Positions 32,709-55,535 of a stretch of DNA of 64,000 nt are shown in pieces. Location of the stretch: contig CASIAP010000005.1 in NCBI GenBank assembly GCA_949372645.1, positions 62,001-126,000 of the forward strand, read 5' to 3'. The notes under the pieces were generated by a model, which was given only the letters and a program-made list of their open reading frames with translations, did no database searches and was not told the DNA's origin. The position numbers and the translations under genes are program-made. Origin of the DNA: Candidatus Poseidoniaceae archaeon (GTDB lineage Archaea; Thermoplasmatota; Poseidoniia; Poseidoniales; Poseidoniaceae). Each line of letters starts with the position of its first letter. Within the stretch, counting starts at the first letter, position 1.

Positions 32709-33524
32709 TCATTGAGCCCAATTGTCCATGCCTTTCTTCACAACTAAGGTTCGAGCGATGAGATCTTGGTTTGTTTGCTTGTGATCAGTCCAAAGTTGTG
32801 CTAAATATCCGAATCCAAACGTAATTATTATCAAAAAAATCAAAGCATGTCGTTTGAGTGCTTTCTTCTTTGAGATTCTGTTTCCGTCATAGTCTGTAAC
32901 AACCAACCCGAAGAGGCGTTTTCCTGGTGTTGCTTGCCATGATGAGGCATTGAAGAGAACAGGGTAAACCAAACCAACAATTAGGAACAATACACCGGAA
33001 GAAATCCCAACGAGACTCAAGAGTATACCTGGGACACTAATCAGCAACAAATCGATCAAAAGAGCACAGGTTCGTGGTATAAATCCTGCAAAACGCCCTC
33101 TCTCTTCTCGAGAACCTCCAACTCCCTTGTACACCATTTTATTTGGATATCCGAATTCATTAACGCCAAATTGCGTCCTTTTCTTTTCTTCATTTGATTG
33201 AGTGTTGAGTTCCTCCCAATCGATTTCAATATTTCCTTCTGTATAATCGACGATACAATGATGAACGAAACCTGAAAAATTAGGCATCTCTTTGGTGACT
33301 TCATTGAGTTTTTCGTCAATAGAAATTGTTTTCTTTTTTTTGCTTTCACCATCATCATTGCCGTTCTTTGATTGAGTGTAGATTTGCTCCCAATCAATTT
33401 CGATATTTCCTTCTGTATAAGTCACGATACAATGTTGAACGAAACCAGAAAAGTTCGGCATTTCTTTGGCTATACCATTCAGTCTTGCATCAATAGAAAT
33501 CGTCTTGTTCACTTTATTGCTCAT
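32709..33524 (-). CDS. RDD-family membrane protein with two N-terminal ribbon-helix-helix-like repeats
   Basis: 271 residues. Residues ~7-53 and ~64-110 are two near-identical units beginning KTISID(A/E)(R/K)LN and containing EMPNFSGFV(Q/H)HCIV and YTEGNIEIDWE; the first 30 residues of each have the strand-helix-helix pattern of CopG/ribbon-helix-helix proteins. After a charged linker an RDD domain follows: GRFAGFIPRTCALLIDLLLIS (arginine and D of the family), then helices and QATPGKRLFGLVVTDYDG. RDD proteins may act as small-molecule or ion carriers. A DNA-binding-like repeat on the cytoplasmic side of a membrane protein is unusual and may tether or titrate DNA or a partner (inference). Confidence 0.8.
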   Translation of the reverse strand: MSNKVNKTISIDARLNGIAKEMPNFSGFVQHCIVTYTEGNIEIDWEQIYTQSKNGNDDGESKKKKTISIDEKLNEVTKEMPNFSGFVHHCIVDYTEGNIEIDWEELNTQSNEEKKRTQFGVNEFGYPNKMVYKGVGGSREERGRFAGFIPRTCALLIDLLLISVPGILLSLVGISSGVLFLIVGLVYPVLFNASSWQATPGKRLFGLVVTDYDGNRISKKKALKRHALIFLIIITFGFGYLAQLWTDHKQTNQDLIARTLVVKKGMDNWAQ

Positions 33525-50091: not shown

Positions 50092-50700
50092 TCAGAAAGT
50101 GGATTGCCATTCTTCTAAGTCTTGAGAAGCAGCCCAATCTTCATCGGTCATTTTCCCACGAACCTTGAGAACTTCACGGGCAAGGAGCCAGTAAACCAAA
50201 GCAAGTGAACGACGACCCTTGTTGTTCGCTGGAAGTGCGATGTCGACGTTACGAAGGTTGTTGTTTGCATCGACAATACCGACGATTGGCAAACCGGAGT
50301 TGACCGCTTCACGGAGGGCTTGTTGGTCAGCAGCAGGATCGGTCACGAACAAGATATCTGGTTCCACGTAAGAGCGGAGGACTGGGTTTGTAAGAGAACC
50401 TGGAATAAAGCGGCCGACAGCAGCGTTAGCGCCGATTGCTTCGGAAAAGAGTCGAGCAGGGCGTTGGCCATATTGACGAGCAGAGACGACCATTATTCGA
50501 GCTGGATCATACTTGTTAAGGAACTCTGCAATCATACGGATTCGAGAGTCGGTCATGTTGACATCTAAAAGATACAATCCATCTTCTCGGACACGTTCAA
50601 TGAAGCGAGCCATATCAGCACTCTTTTGTTGAGTACCAATATTAACGGCGTTCTCTTCATAGGATTCAAAGGGTAAGAGTAAGCTCATTTCCTCGGACAT
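50092..50700 (-). CDS. rps2: Small ribosomal subunit protein uS2
   Basis: 202 residues, the archaeal length. Conserved features: NIGTQQKSADMARFI, LYLLDVNMTDSRIRMIAEFL, IMVVSARQYGQRPA, PDILFVTDPAADQQALREAV, GLPIVGIVDANNN and NNKGRRSLALVYWLLARE. It binds the head-body junction of the 30S subunit. In many archaea it follows rpoN, rpoK and enolase; none of them is here, so the usual operon is broken. Confidence 0.95.
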   Translation of the reverse strand: MSEEMSLLLPFESYEENAVNIGTQQKSADMARFIERVREDGLYLLDVNMTDSRIRMIAEFLNKYDPARIMVVSARQYGQRPARLFSEAIGANAAVGRFIPGSLTNPVLRSYVEPDILFVTDPAADQQALREAVNSGLPIVGIVDANNNLRNVDIALPANNKGRRSLALVYWLLAREVLKVRGKMTDEDWAASQDLEEWQSTF

Positions 50701-50741: not shown

Positions 50742-50857
50742 CCGCTTCGTAGAGAGGCGGAATGAATTCACCTCCGACCTTTAGCCAAATTCGATGGGAT
50801 TGCCTAGGAAGAACTCAAAACATAATGGCTCTGTGTTAAGCCGTAGGGGGGCAAATC

Positions 50858-52036
50858 TTGGAAGTTAAATTCGATGGAAACGGCCTACTGAGTGCTACAC
50901 TTTCAGAAGATAGTTTTTGGCGAGACTCCGAAGGGGTCGCCCTACCAGTCAGCGCAAGTGATTTAGAGCGTCACGAATATTGTCCTTTATCTTGGTCATT
51001 ATCTCGAGAAGGAAATTCTGGCCAAGGGGAAGCTCTTGTCGCCGGAATCAAAAGACATGCAGAAATTCATAACAAGATGGAGGGTTTCAAAGATGTCCAA
51101 TCTGAAATGCGCCGTTCTGTTACCATCTGGACATGGTGGTTTTCTGTCATCATCGCGCTGAGTATTGATGCTCTTGCTTTCAACTATATCGATGATGTAA
51201 CCACCTCGTTACAAATGGCTCGGTATCTCGCAATTTGGAGTGCTACTACCCTCTTTGTCGGACTTGTGGCAATTTCAGTCCCATGGCGCTCATGGATTGG
51301 TTGGAACGAAACGATTCCTCGACAAAAAACAAAATTTTTAGCAGAGACTGATGATTTTACCTATTTTTGGCAACCAAGAGGTTTCATTGGAGGATGGTTT
51401 GAAGCAGGGCGTGTAGAGGCCAGTTTACTCATTGGTTCAATTGTATTAGGGCTGCATGCTATTGCATTGATGGCGGCAAATAATCGAGAACAAGCGACCT
51501 TTATCCTCTTTATCACGGCTATGACTTGGACACTGGCAGCCTCTTGGCAATTACAAAGAATGCTCCTTTCAGACAACATCCTTCAATCGATGAAAGAGGA
51601 AATTGACTTAGATGAAAGTCATGAAGTCGCCTATTCTGACGATGATACCACTACAAATATTCTTGTCGATGAACAATCAGGATTACGAGGTCGGCCAGAT
51701 CAAATTGTCATTGTCGATGGTGAGTTTATTCCTGTCGAGCAAAAAACCGGTAGAGTTCCGTTTAATCCGCATTCATCGCATCGAATTCAGTTGCTCGCCT
51801 ATTTACAGTTAGTTGAAGTAAATACCAAGAAAAGTCCACCATATGGAGTCCTACGATATGGCAAGGAAAATCTTCATCAAATCCCTTGGAATGATGTTGC
51901 AAAGCAGGAATTAAAAGATGCTATCAGTGAAATTCAGCGACTAATGGTTGAAGGTGGAGCAATACGAAACCACGAGCGCCCTGGAAAATGCCGCAACTGT
52001 TCTCGACTCTATGCTTGCACCGATTCATTAGCGTGA
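50858..52036 (+). CDS. Cas4-like PD-(D/E)XK nuclease interrupted by four transmembrane helices
   Basis: 392 residues, TTG start. Cas4/RecB-type nuclease features: an N-terminal iron-sulfur cysteine C42 in LERHEYCPLSW, H67 in GIKRHAEIH, catalytic D281 in GLRGRPDQIVIVDG, E294-x-K296 in IPVEQKTGR, the QLLAYLQLVE helix, and the closing cysteines C378, C381 and C387 (GKCRNCSRLYAC) of the 4Fe-4S cluster. Between H67 and D281 four hydrophobic helices (about 89-108, 123-141, 187-207, 213-231) are inserted, in place of the usual ~60-residue linker. All catalytic and cluster residues are kept, so an active membrane-bound exonuclease is likely (inference). No cas gene or CRISPR array is nearby. Confidence 0.8.
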   Translation: MEVKFDGNGLLSATLSEDSFWRDSEGVALPVSASDLERHEYCPLSWSLSREGNSGQGEALVAGIKRHAEIHNKMEGFKDVQSEMRRSVTIWTWWFSVIIALSIDALAFNYIDDVTTSLQMARYLAIWSATTLFVGLVAISVPWRSWIGWNETIPRQKTKFLAETDDFTYFWQPRGFIGGWFEAGRVEASLLIGSIVLGLHAIALMAANNREQATFILFITAMTWTLAASWQLQRMLLSDNILQSMKEEIDLDESHEVAYSDDDTTTNILVDEQSGLRGRPDQIVIVDGEFIPVEQKTGRVPFNPHSSHRIQLLAYLQLVEVNTKKSPPYGVLRYGKENLHQIPWNDVAKQELKDAISEIQRLMVEGGAIRNHERPGKCRNCSRLYACTDSLA

Positions 52037-52037
52037 T

Positions 52038-52592
52038 TCATATGCATTTATCGCCTTCAATGGGATATGTGGTACATGGTCGGTGAATGGTGAGGTCAAT
52101 ATGGAAGTAGTCTTGCAATGCTGAGCTTTGAGAGCCAAAACCCCGTGCATTGACTACCAATTTCCAAGTTCCGATTTCAAAACTAGGTTCTGGCAGAATT
52201 TGATCGGTTTTTGCATCGACATTTTGACAGACATCTATCGACCAAACGGATTCTCCAGAGGGGCTCAGTAGTTCAGCTCGGACATACCGAGTGAATTCTT
52301 CGAGGCAGCCCTCACGGAGGTCAGAGCCCGTGAGTTTCACTTTCTGATACATGATGATATCAATCACTGAATCATCGATATAAATCGTGGAGGTGTTTTG
52401 ATACTCCTCCCAATCGATTAAGTTATCAAATATTTTGAATTGGGAGACTTTTACCTCCACTATTTCAACTTTGGGCGCTTCACGTAAATCTTCCATGGTT
52501 TCGCGCATTTGCAAAAGGCCGAGGCATCCAGATGAGCTACTCATAAAGAGAATCGTCACCAGTATGAGAGGTAGGCCCCAACTCGACTTCAT
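52038..52592 (-). CDS. Lipoprotein, unknown
   Basis: 184 residues. Signal peptide with lipobox (LILVTILFMSSSSGC). The mature part begins with a helical, acidic stretch (RETMEDLREAPKVEIVEV), then a beta-rich domain that looks Ig-like: VDIIMYQKVKLTGSD in part, RAELLSPSGESVWSIDVC and GTWKLVVNARGFGSQ. Four cysteines in the mature protein could form disulfides. No family recognised. Stop abuts the convergent Cas4-like gene. Confidence 0.7.
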   Translation of the reverse strand: MKSSWGLPLILVTILFMSSSSGCLGLLQMRETMEDLREAPKVEIVEVKVSQFKIFDNLIDWEEYQNTSTIYIDDSVIDIIMYQKVKLTGSDLREGCLEEFTRYVRAELLSPSGESVWSIDVCQNVDAKTDQILPEPSFEIGTWKLVVNARGFGSQSSALQDYFHIDLTIHRPCTTYPIEGDKCI

Positions 52593-52739: not shown

Positions 52740-55535
52740 TCACTCAAACTTGGCACCACAGGTTCCACATTCGGTGGCTTCGACTGACAGGTCTGCACCA
52801 CATGCACCACATTCAGCAACGTCAGACGCTTGCTCTTCTGCTGCTTTACGTCGAGTACCACGGCGGCGAGATGATTTAGGTGCTTGAGGAGAGAGTTCAT
52901 CCACGATTGCAATTGGTGCATCATCATCAACTACCGAAAAGTCGGAAGTCGTTTCAGATACTTCATTTCCAGCGAAAGAAGAATCAGTCAATTCCATTCC
53001 AACATGGACCTTATCACCAGGCATTGTTCCTTGTTCACCAGTAATTTCAAACAAGCGCCCTCGGATATCAGCATCGCTAGCAGAGAGTTCCTTTCCATCA
53101 TCTTTGTGTGCAATGATTTCGCCTTTCGAGGCGAGAATTGCATCAATGTCATTCGTTTCATGCCCGAGTTCAGTCATGCTCTTGAGCGTAGTAGTCACCG
53201 TGTTTTGATATGCTTCGAGTTCTTCTTCAGTCATATCCTCGCGTAAAACCTCTTCCGCATTTTTCCGATCATAGGCGGCTTCGACTTCTGCTTCAGCACT
53301 CACGATCTGCTCATCCCATTCGTCTTCGAGTTCATCCTCATCGAAACCAAACTCTTGGGCAGTCTTAGCGAAGTTCTCTGAACCAGTGACGATAGCGTCT
53401 TCATCAACTTCTTCAGGAAGATCCACAACGACTTTTGCAACATTAGTTTTACGCTCTCGCTGTTCAAAGTATGAAGATACATCTTGATCTGCACCACAAT
53501 AAACGCAATTATCCAGCAAGTCAGGTATCGATTCACCGCATTCATCACAATCGTGGAATTGACTACGGGCTTTCTTGAGATTAAAGGAACAATGCGGGCA
53601 ACGGTTTTCATCACCCTCTAATTCACCATCACACGCGGGACAGTATTCGAAAATGTCACGTTCAACTTCCTCTTCTGTTTCACGTGTGAGGTAAATTGAT
53701 ATCGCCAAGATTCCAATCAAAGCAAGAGCGACAAAGAGAATTAAAGTAAAAGTTCCGAATTCAGAATTGGAGCTCATGTCTTCAATATCTTGATCACTCA
53801 ACACCGTTGCAAAGGTTTTGGTAAAGGTGCTGGATATCGTTGAATCTGATGGGACAATTCGTACTACTGTTGAAGGGGCAGATGCATTGAATTCACAGCT
53901 AATTGTCACCTTCTGACCAAGGCTCGTGACTTCAGCAAACGTGGTTGAAAGAATCGTATCACTTCCATCGAGACAATCGTATGTTAAATTTCCAGTCTCT
54001 TTACTCGTCAAATTCACTTGGAGGACATAGGTTTCGCCTTGTGTCATCGGTAAAACGAGAGAGGTTCCATCAGAACCTACTACAACGAGTGTGGAAAAGG
54101 CCCAAGACAAGCGCAAATCGGCCTCGACCGAGACCATGCCGGATGCAACACTGTTGGTTGGATTTGAATCCCAACTGTTTGACAACGCGACCCATTGAGA
54201 ATCAAATACCGCATTGTGGGCGCCGATGGCAGTGGTCAATTCGACTGACCATGTGTAATCTTGACCTGGATCGAGAAAAATAATTGGTGAGGTGGCTTCG
54301 ACGCCCTCCCAAGTATAGTGCAACTTTCCAGAAACGCGAATTTCACCGGTATTAATCATACTCACACTCCAAACGACAGAATCTCCAGAATTAACCGAAG
54401 GAGACGAGGCTATTGCATTCAAGTCTACAAAGACATCAGGGACTCCGATTTTTGAAAGTTGAGCAGATATGACGTCATTCGATGTGGATTCTTGGATAAA
54501 ACCTGCATTCTCAAAGGGATCGATTTTTGCTGACAACATATGGAGGCCAACAGGCAATACATTCAATTCGGTCGAATCCAGGACCTGACTCCATTGTGTT
54601 TCTGCATAACCTGTGCCTGTGAGGTTGACGGTGAACAGCGTTGTAATCATTCCACCAGTAGGGTTGGGTACTTGTAACCAAAGTGGTACAGTTGTGATTC
54701 CAGTGCCATTGCTTCGTCCAATTTTACCACGAATTACCCAGGGGCCTTCGAGCTCGCCGTCTTCAATATCCACCGTTAATTCACCAATGTGGTACAAATC
54801 CATGCGCGTATCTACGACAAATGGGACTTCAACCATCTTGTTCGCTTCAGATGATTCGTGAACAGCATTTTGATAATCTGGTGTAATCACCAAAGTGTGT
54901 GAACCACTTTCCGGTGCAGTAAAGGTCGTGTTGACCCATTCAGTTGACCCTGCTGCAATTGAAGGAGTCGGAAGTTCGATGTCTGTAGTTCCGAGGTCGA
55001 TGTGAAGGGTGCTCGCATCGGCTGGTTCACTGCCCAGATTGCGGACCAAAGAGGAAAGTTGGACTGTATCACCGGCAAAAATTCCCGATGAAGGCGAAAG
55101 TTGTGTTTCGGTCACTTTCAAATTCGGTAGGCCAGTAACTGTAAATTCAACATAAAAGTCGACTTCGTTACCAGAGTTGCGCGGGTGTTCAAAGGTGATA
55201 TGAACTTCATGGTCGCCTTCAACAAGGCCCTCCCACACTGCAGAAACTTCTTCTGACTCACCTGTATCAATATCGATTGTTGAACTTTCTATGAGTTTAC
55301 TTTGACCGATTCCGTTACGGTAAAAGGCGTACTCGACATCAGTCGCATAGGTTCCACTGTTGGATAATGTGAGGTAAATCGTAACTGAACCACCGGCTTC
55401 AGGTGATGCCGGTAGAAGTGCAACCGTATTCTCTGAAGCCTGAATTGAACCACTCTGTTCAGCTGAAATTGTCATTGGCAACGCCGCGATACAGAGAAGA
55501 AGAATCGCAATTACCGGCTTCCACGCGCTTGCCAT
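52740..55535 (-). CDS. CARDB/Ig-repeat exoprotein with membrane anchor and cytoplasmic zinc ribbons
   Basis: 931 residues. Signal peptide (IAILLLCIAALPMTISA), then several CARDB/Ig-like modules outside the cell (for example NLKVTETQLSPSSGIFAGDTVQLSSLV in part, and VPDVFVDLNAIASSP). A transmembrane helix at about 595-615 (FTLILFVALALIGILAISIYL) precedes a cytoplasmic region with double zinc ribbons (CPACDGELEGDENRCPHC and CDECGESIPDLLDNCVYCG), an acidic coiled stretch, a basic patch (SRRRGTRRKAAEE) and a last ribbon (CGACGADLSVEATECGTCG). The gene may link an outer adhesive part with an inner nucleic-acid- or protein-binding part (inference). Confidence 0.82.
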   Translation of the reverse strand: MASAWKPVIAILLLCIAALPMTISAEQSGSIQASENTVALLPASPEAGGSVTIYLTLSNSGTYATDVEYAFYRNGIGQSKLIESSTIDIDTGESEEVSAVWEGLVEGDHEVHITFEHPRNSGNEVDFYVEFTVTGLPNLKVTETQLSPSSGIFAGDTVQLSSLVRNLGSEPADASTLHIDLGTTDIELPTPSIAAGSTEWVNTTFTAPESGSHTLVITPDYQNAVHESSEANKMVEVPFVVDTRMDLYHIGELTVDIEDGELEGPWVIRGKIGRSNGTGITTVPLWLQVPNPTGGMITTLFTVNLTGTGYAETQWSQVLDSTELNVLPVGLHMLSAKIDPFENAGFIQESTSNDVISAQLSKIGVPDVFVDLNAIASSPSVNSGDSVVWSVSMINTGEIRVSGKLHYTWEGVEATSPIIFLDPGQDYTWSVELTTAIGAHNAVFDSQWVALSNSWDSNPTNSVASGMVSVEADLRLSWAFSTLVVVGSDGTSLVLPMTQGETYVLQVNLTSKETGNLTYDCLDGSDTILSTTFAEVTSLGQKVTISCEFNASAPSTVVRIVPSDSTISSTFTKTFATVLSDQDIEDMSSNSEFGTFTLILFVALALIGILAISIYLTRETEEEVERDIFEYCPACDGELEGDENRCPHCSFNLKKARSQFHDCDECGESIPDLLDNCVYCGADQDVSSYFEQRERKTNVAKVVVDLPEEVDEDAIVTGSENFAKTAQEFGFDEDELEDEWDEQIVSAEAEVEAAYDRKNAEEVLREDMTEEELEAYQNTVTTTLKSMTELGHETNDIDAILASKGEIIAHKDDGKELSASDADIRGRLFEITGEQGTMPGDKVHVGMELTDSSFAGNEVSETTSDFSVVDDDAPIAIVDELSPQAPKSSRRRGTRRKAAEEQASDVAECGACGADLSVEATECGTCGAKFE

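Follow-up and report, generated by a model that had tools for sequence, protein, structure and literature searches.

Background

Dna2 and other RecB-like 4Fe-4S nucleases share the PD-(D/E)XK fold and a four-cysteine Fe-S signature. Among archaea, one described kind of nuclease with the Cas4 motifs and four cysteines (COG1468 / TIGR00372 / PF01930), the solo-Cas4, lies outside CRISPR loci and is inherited mainly vertically; its description leaves open what it does and why it is kept without CRISPR, and Hudaiberdiev et al. 2017 suggested uncharacterised defence or repair functions for it (PMC5704561). A cyanobacterial Cas4-like nuclease has been reported to reduce the transfer or maintenance of the plasmid RSF1010 (PMC10653904).

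The gene considered here occupies positions 50858-52036 on the plus strand of the window (the whole stretch of 64,000 nucleotides that was analysed), in a genome that its close relatives among named genome contigs place in Candidatus Poseidoniales (Marine Group II). Its product, a Cas4-family protein of 392 aa, resembles the archaeal solo-Cas4 of PMC5704561 in its motifs, its four cysteines, its position outside CRISPR loci and its mainly vertical inheritance, but differs in that here either 2, 4 or 8 predicted helices interrupt the nuclease domain or the gene is split in two. A word search of the main text of PMC5704561 gives no mention of transmembrane segments, of an insertion or of split genes, and a literature search, mostly outside subscription journals, found no paper on a membrane Cas4. 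We therefore rate the membrane-hairpin or split form as a new variation on the archaeal solo-Cas4, which itself is already described.

The gene and its nuclease residues

The nuclease part of the gene comprises the following features, the residues being assigned by motifs and alignment.

50858..52036, plus strand: whole gene, predicted membrane-hairpin Cas4-like protein, 392 aa, TTG start
50846..50851, plus strand: GGGGGG run resembling a Shine-Dalgarno sequence, 6 nt 5' of the TTG start, read from the sequence
50918..51097, plus strand: N-terminal nuclease part (residues 21-80), containing C42 and H67, from motifs and alignment
50981-50983, plus strand: C42, predicted first Fe-S cysteine, within SASDLERHEYCPLSW
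51056-51058, plus strand: H67, the motif-I histidine
51632..52033, plus strand: C-terminal nuclease part (residues 259-392), from Pfam and alignments
51698-51700, plus strand: D281, catalytic residue by alignment
51737-51739, plus strand: E294, catalytic residue by alignment
51743-51745, plus strand: K296, catalytic residue by alignment
51788-51790, plus strand: Q311, of the QxxxY motif
51989..52018, plus strand: C378, C381 and C387, the three predicted C-terminal Fe-S cysteines, from alignments

The protein scores above the cut-offs of PF01930 (38.1 bits; cut-off 22.7) and PF12705 (39.9 bits; cut-off 22) and below that of TIGR00372 cas4 (56.1; cut-off 65), the last of which is passed by its relatives L170 (78.3), L166 (82.0) and the C-terminal half of L202 (76.5). 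Matches to the PF12705 nuclease domain occur at three further places in the genome, so that the gene does not encode the only RecB-type nuclease there.

All the residues that an earlier note on this DNA had named as kept, C42, H67, D281, E294, K296, C378, C381 and C387, are at the positions claimed. None of them varies among 35 aligned homologues from Poseidoniales, and the same holds for 80 additional loci, save that C42 is replaced by an X or a gap in two of the rows. H67 is found in 81/81 aligned rows, and D281, E294, K296, Q311 and Y315 are invariant in Poseidoniales. Phylum-wide, the alignment shows no change in the GxPD motif, the lysine, QxxxY or any of the three C-terminal cysteines, and almost none in the glutamate. 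Hence homologues devoid of catalytic residues, which the note had named as evidence against a nuclease, did not turn up, and this phylum-wide retention makes it unlikely that the split forms described below are decaying genes. To judge from its sequence, the gene encodes a PD-(D/E)XK nuclease of the solo-Cas4 type with its catalytic and Fe-S cysteine residues intact.

The nuclease domain of Dna2 is accompanied by a helicase, the place of which is taken here by the predicted membrane domain. Could the Cas4 fold have been kept merely as a binding or scaffold domain of a membrane protein, its nuclease activity being lost? The lack of a helicase gene adjoining the nuclease in the archaeal loci annotated would suit such a protein. 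However, the phylum-wide conservation of the aspartate, the lysine, QxxxY, the C-terminal cysteines and, nearly so, the glutamate is hard to explain without catalysis, which renders a loss of nuclease activity quite improbable.

The predicted membrane insert

The stretch between H67 and D281 contains four hydrophobic segments, with Kyte-Doolittle maxima (19 residues averaged) at residues 90-108 (1.70), 123-141 (1.87), 188-206 (2.12) and 214-232 (1.28). The helices given below are predicted from hydropathy and not by a dedicated topology predictor.

51122..51187, plus strand: predicted membrane helix 1, hairpin 1 (about residues 89-110), from hydropathy and family
51218..51283, plus strand: predicted membrane helix 2, hairpin 1 (about residues 121-142), from hydropathy and family
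51284..51412, plus strand: inter-hairpin loop (residues 143-185), predicted to be cytoplasmic from the positive-inside pattern of the family
51413..51475, plus strand: predicted membrane helix 3, hairpin 2 (about residues 186-206), from hydropathy and family
51494..51562, plus strand: predicted membrane helix 4, hairpin 2 (about residues 213-235), from hydropathy and family

The spacing between H67 and D281 amounts to 214 residues, as compared to 27 and 39 in two plasmid-borne CRISPR Cas4 controls, which brings the insertion nearer to 175 residues, the membrane part accounting for some 147 of them. The four helices of the earlier note have stood, and its estimate of about 140 residues for the whole insert was too low. 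The insert falls between the two parts of the nuclease that profile comparison aligns to the solved Cas4 8d3l: the N-terminal part matches residues 6-59 of the latter (weakly, with 5.9 bits) and the C-terminal part residues 103-202 (42 bits). The C-terminal part aligns also to other solved CRISPR Cas4 proteins (4r5q, 4ic1 and 7mi4); as distinct from the present protein, three solved single-domain Cas4 chains measure 206-218 aa, and no cas1 partner is found here.

The hydropathy of this single protein is only mildly unusual, at least four segments being obtained also in 86/2000 shuffles of it, so that the case for a membrane domain rests on the family. Its helix 4, the weakest, reaches 1.9-2.3 in six homologues from the neighbouring family f2. 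A chain that leaves a compartment and re-enters the same compartment must cross the membrane an even number of times, and an even number of helices is predicted in 54/56 single-gene homologues (42 with four, 8 with two and 4 with eight), the two loci with odd counts both being near the threshold. In the family, the helix flanks predicted to lie inside contain 23.5% lysine plus arginine, those outside 8.5%; by the positive-inside rule, this asymmetry places the nuclease in the cytoplasm. The two hairpins of the four-helix proteins, furthermore, are homologous to each other and hence the product of a tandem duplication: hhalign aligns them with a probability of 98.5 (E 2.6e-15), and the HMM of one scores the other with medians of about 31 bits, versus about 1 bit for reversed-sequence controls. 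That the insert has been misread, and that a soluble Cas4 merely buries hydrophobic helices, would be compatible with the mildly unusual hydropathy and weak helix 4 of the window sequence, but the even helix number, the charge asymmetry, the hairpin duplication and the split of the gene with one helix per half (see below) leave this very little probability.

Two variants of the insert may be mentioned. In L169, L237, L244 and L248 it contains eight predicted helices, twice the usual number, and a homologue in L180 (5217-6674) carries about 100 extra residues, with no Pfam family, in the loop that joins helices 1 and 2 and is predicted to lie outside.

Whether the Cas4 core can close around such an insert was addressed with two AlphaFold models, both built from narrow alignments and of low confidence. 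Model 1 (mean pLDDT 64) found no counterpart in the PDB. Model 2, which represents a close homologue and has a mean pLDDT of 67, weakly resembles 8d3q and 8d3l by fold; its best eight Foldseek matches in the PDB are Cas4, Cas4-Cas1, Dna2 (5eax, match 2) and one putative exonuclease, with a probability of up to 1.00, a best E of 0.019 (none below 0.001) and a TM of 0.45 to the target. A closed core, which had been put forward as a check on the nuclease, accordingly finds a weak echo in the second model, insert included, and none in the first; the models are consistent with closure but do not prove it.

Spread of the family and split forms

A profile of the Poseidoniales proteins matches 242/390 genomes of the phylum Thermoplasmatota, and a wider profile 251/390; distant relatives of about 330 aa have the insert as well, so the search for homologues with the same insert, which had been proposed, met with success across the phylum. 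Closer to the present genome, the gene is found in 40/60 relatives: nearly every member of its genus carries it, as do some of the genera that belong to the neighbouring family, f2. One genome (G003, contig C6, 85786-86945; locus L044) has, besides an intact copy, a second, degraded one, which is interrupted by in-frame stop codons and by shifts of the reading frame.

In three families (f6, f16 and f27) the nuclease consists of two adjacent genes in 34/34 sampled genomes, the N-terminal half of G320, which the profile missed, still being present at its locus. The N-half carries the first cysteine, the histidine and one predicted helix, and stops 0-5 residues past this helix (33 loci measured); the C-half starts with a helix, followed by the catalytic triad and the three cysteines. 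The split point lies within the membrane region. A tree of the C-domain places the split forms at two positions and at first suggested two independent splits; the AU test does not speak against a single one (p 0.287), so that there may have been one split or two.

Genomic context and CRISPR

In Poseidoniales the gene is flanked by the same two genes in conserved synteny, with a tRNA-dihydrouridine synthase gene nearby.

50092..50700, minus strand: ribosomal protein S2, next to the gene in Poseidoniales and to the empty site where a genus lacks the gene
52038..52592, minus strand: 184-aa lipoprotein-like protein with no Pfam family, bordering the gene, or the empty site, on the side opposite to S2

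In seven f2 genomes without the nuclease, the S2 and lipoprotein genes adjoin each other at a clean empty site, which indicates that the gene is dispensable there. Also adjoining the locus, at 52740-55535 of the window, is the gene of a 931-aa CARDB/zinc-ribbon protein. A joint loss of this neighbour with the nuclease was considered and not upheld: it has no similarity match in eight f2 genomes that also are devoid of the nuclease, and this may reflect divergence or one loss.

The conserved Poseidoniales synteny and the phylum-wide distribution, outside CRISPR loci, are those of a solo-Cas4 with mainly vertical inheritance. The absence of a CRISPR array and of cas genes, claimed earlier for this DNA, was borne out: there is no CRISPR-like repeat in positions 30-64 kb of the window, and cas1 (PF01867) is encoded by 0/60 genomes (this one and 59 relatives), so the cas1/cas2 genes and array of a CRISPR-associated Cas4 do not accompany this gene. 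At 33193-33509 of the window, a 143-nt sequence occurs twice in direct orientation, the copies being 83% identical and spaced by 174 nt.

Elsewhere the context differs between lineages. At about ten loci of other lineages a TPD-family nuclease is encoded directly upstream and glmS downstream. In f27 (L205 and L209-L218) the split nuclease is part of an operon that comprises smc, scpA, the Cas4 N-half, the Cas4 C-half and tyrosyl-tRNA synthetase, in this order; smc-scpA lies directly upstream in 11/11 f27 loci (SMC assigned by Pfam; scpA by eye, with no Pfam hit). The operon is mostly followed by a gene for a FEN1/XPG-type nuclease in the opposite direction. NurA is absent from 19/19 Poseidoniales tested, and a simple replacement of NurA by the membrane nuclease was rejected as a general rule since NurA coexists with the split form in f27 genomes.

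It had been proposed to look among the neighbours for genes of defence or DNA uptake. In the archaeal loci annotated the neighbours belong to housekeeping and DNA metabolism, and neither defence genes nor a defence island were found. For uptake, be it for nutrition or transformation, the nuclease would process imported DNA at the membrane. Its predicted membrane location would fit, as would a gene predicted to encode a Lamin-Tail-Domain and phospholipase-D-like (LTD-PLD) protein. This gene is directly upstream in two families, represented by L240 (1580-3628; Pfam run on this locus) and L245 (assigned by clustering); in L166 (7401-9236) it lies at a distance of three genes. Such a neighbour is rare, however, and a ComEC-family protein was found in 0/40 Thermoplasmatota genomes, this one included, with a control that was positive only in bacteria and with another archaeal channel being possible. 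We consider uptake improbable. Of the earlier proposal, a membrane-fixed Cas4-like nuclease serving uptake, defence or envelope repair, the predicted membrane insertion, the independence from CRISPR and the apparently intact catalytic site have held, and uptake has lost ground for want of a ComEC-family protein.

Split pairs on bacterial plasmids

Searches of plasmids returned, along with ordinary Cas4s, pairs that resemble the split archaeal ones, from Bacillus, Planctomycetes and Proteobacteria. On plasmids of Bacillus subtilis, Singulisphaera and Paludisphaera, the pairs (L253 1188-1926, L254 1130-1902 and L258 1091-1872) are adjacent or overlapping genes with one predicted helix per half. 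NRS6116_2 is a B. subtilis plasmid with such a pair. The C-half of the proteobacterial form, which has an N-terminal helix in 4/4 examined, is matched on 33 plasmids, all but four of which are mobilizable or conjugative. Where annotated, the proteobacterial N-half is a CFI-box-CTERM protein with Cas4-like Cys/His motifs and no predicted helix; it overlaps the PD-(D/E)XK half in L260 (992-1908) and in L261-L264. Conjugation genes lie near the pair in two of the regions examined (TraG/TraU in L261, TraG/TraH in L264); in a third, a MobF relaxase and an N6-methylase are encoded near the planctomycete pair L266.

These pairs are like the archaeal ones in that an N-half with the cysteine and the histidine is adjacent to, or overlaps, a C-half with an N-terminal helix, and unlike them in being plasmid-borne and, in Proteobacteria, in having a CFI-box-CTERM domain instead of the predicted helix of the N-half. 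One origin for the archaeal and bacterial split forms is no more than a possibility, their C-domains being very divergent, with long branches in the tree. An origin from mobile elements or viruses was considered as well. Viral contigs and phages yielded no relatives, which disfavours a viral origin, and a Cas4 of mobile elements or viruses was set aside, the plasmid matches being only distant bacterial and haloarchaeal Cas4s.

The existence of similar split pairs on conjugative plasmids would fit a function in DNA transfer or in countering it. For the archaeal protein, it might be suggested that a membrane-held nuclease degrades or processes foreign DNA as the latter emerges at the cytoplasmic side, without any CRISPR. 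The predicted membrane location together with an intact nuclease site, the plasmid look-alikes with their conjugation genes, relaxase and methylase, the reported action of the cyanobacterial Cas4-like nuclease on RSF1010 (PMC10653904) and the defence or repair functions suggested for solo-Cas4 (PMC5704561) would all agree with a defence at the point of entry. Nevertheless, the archaeal gene sits in a conserved, vertically inherited locus by ribosomal-protein and housekeeping genes, and none of the archaeal loci that were annotated has genes for defence; PADLOC returned for the nuclease itself only the Cas4, Cas4-Cas1 and Druantia DruK models; and the pairs on plasmids might just as well function in the transfer or replication of the plasmid. 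On balance, entry defence seems rather unlikely, though it deserves more credence than uptake.

A probable nuclease nested in the membrane

Taken together, the data are best explained by the following scenario. By sequence comparison, the chain leaves the nuclease fold after the motif-I histidine, passes through the membrane as at least one hairpin (as two in the present protein) and returns to complete the active site. Tandem duplication has increased the number of hairpins, and certain lineages have the gene divided within the membrane region, yielding two single-pass halves that would have to meet in the membrane. The family-wide patterns of helices, charges and homology make this architecture, with membrane hairpins nested in a Cas4 domain, duplicated and sometimes split, highly probable. 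The nuclease core would face the cytoplasm, bind a 4Fe-4S cluster and cut DNA ends or flaps at the membrane.

As to its task, we tentatively envisage a CRISPR-independent housekeeping function, namely that the nuclease trims or repairs the DNA of the chromosome at the membrane, perhaps in connection with SMC-based chromosome handling, rather than uptake. Vertical inheritance, the housekeeping neighbours and the SMC-ScpA operon slightly favour a repair or chromosome job over entry defence; since the genomic context differs between lineages, the SMC-ScpA link is limited to one family. A repair or chromosome role as such we would put a little short of an even chance, and the whole explanation, architecture and CRISPR-independent role at the membrane combined, at about an even one, the low confidence of the structural models, the best E of 0.019 and the missing gene in several f2 genera counting against it.

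What is unusual about this family is that a membrane domain is predicted to be nested inside a catalytic domain, and that nature offers a graded series of it, with 2, 4 or 8 helices or with the gene split. If the active site of the split forms arises only once the two single-pass halves assemble in the membrane, this assembly would control where DNA is cut, coupling the nuclease to SMC-dependent chromosome handling or to DNA entry, a possibility to which we attach some, albeit not predominant, weight. Candidate partners are suggested by SMC-ScpA in one lineage and by the conjugation genes near the plasmid look-alikes. A phylum-wide family of nucleases that are, by prediction, fixed in the membrane would narrow the question of what a Cas4 does in the absence of CRISPR to the DNA at the membrane.
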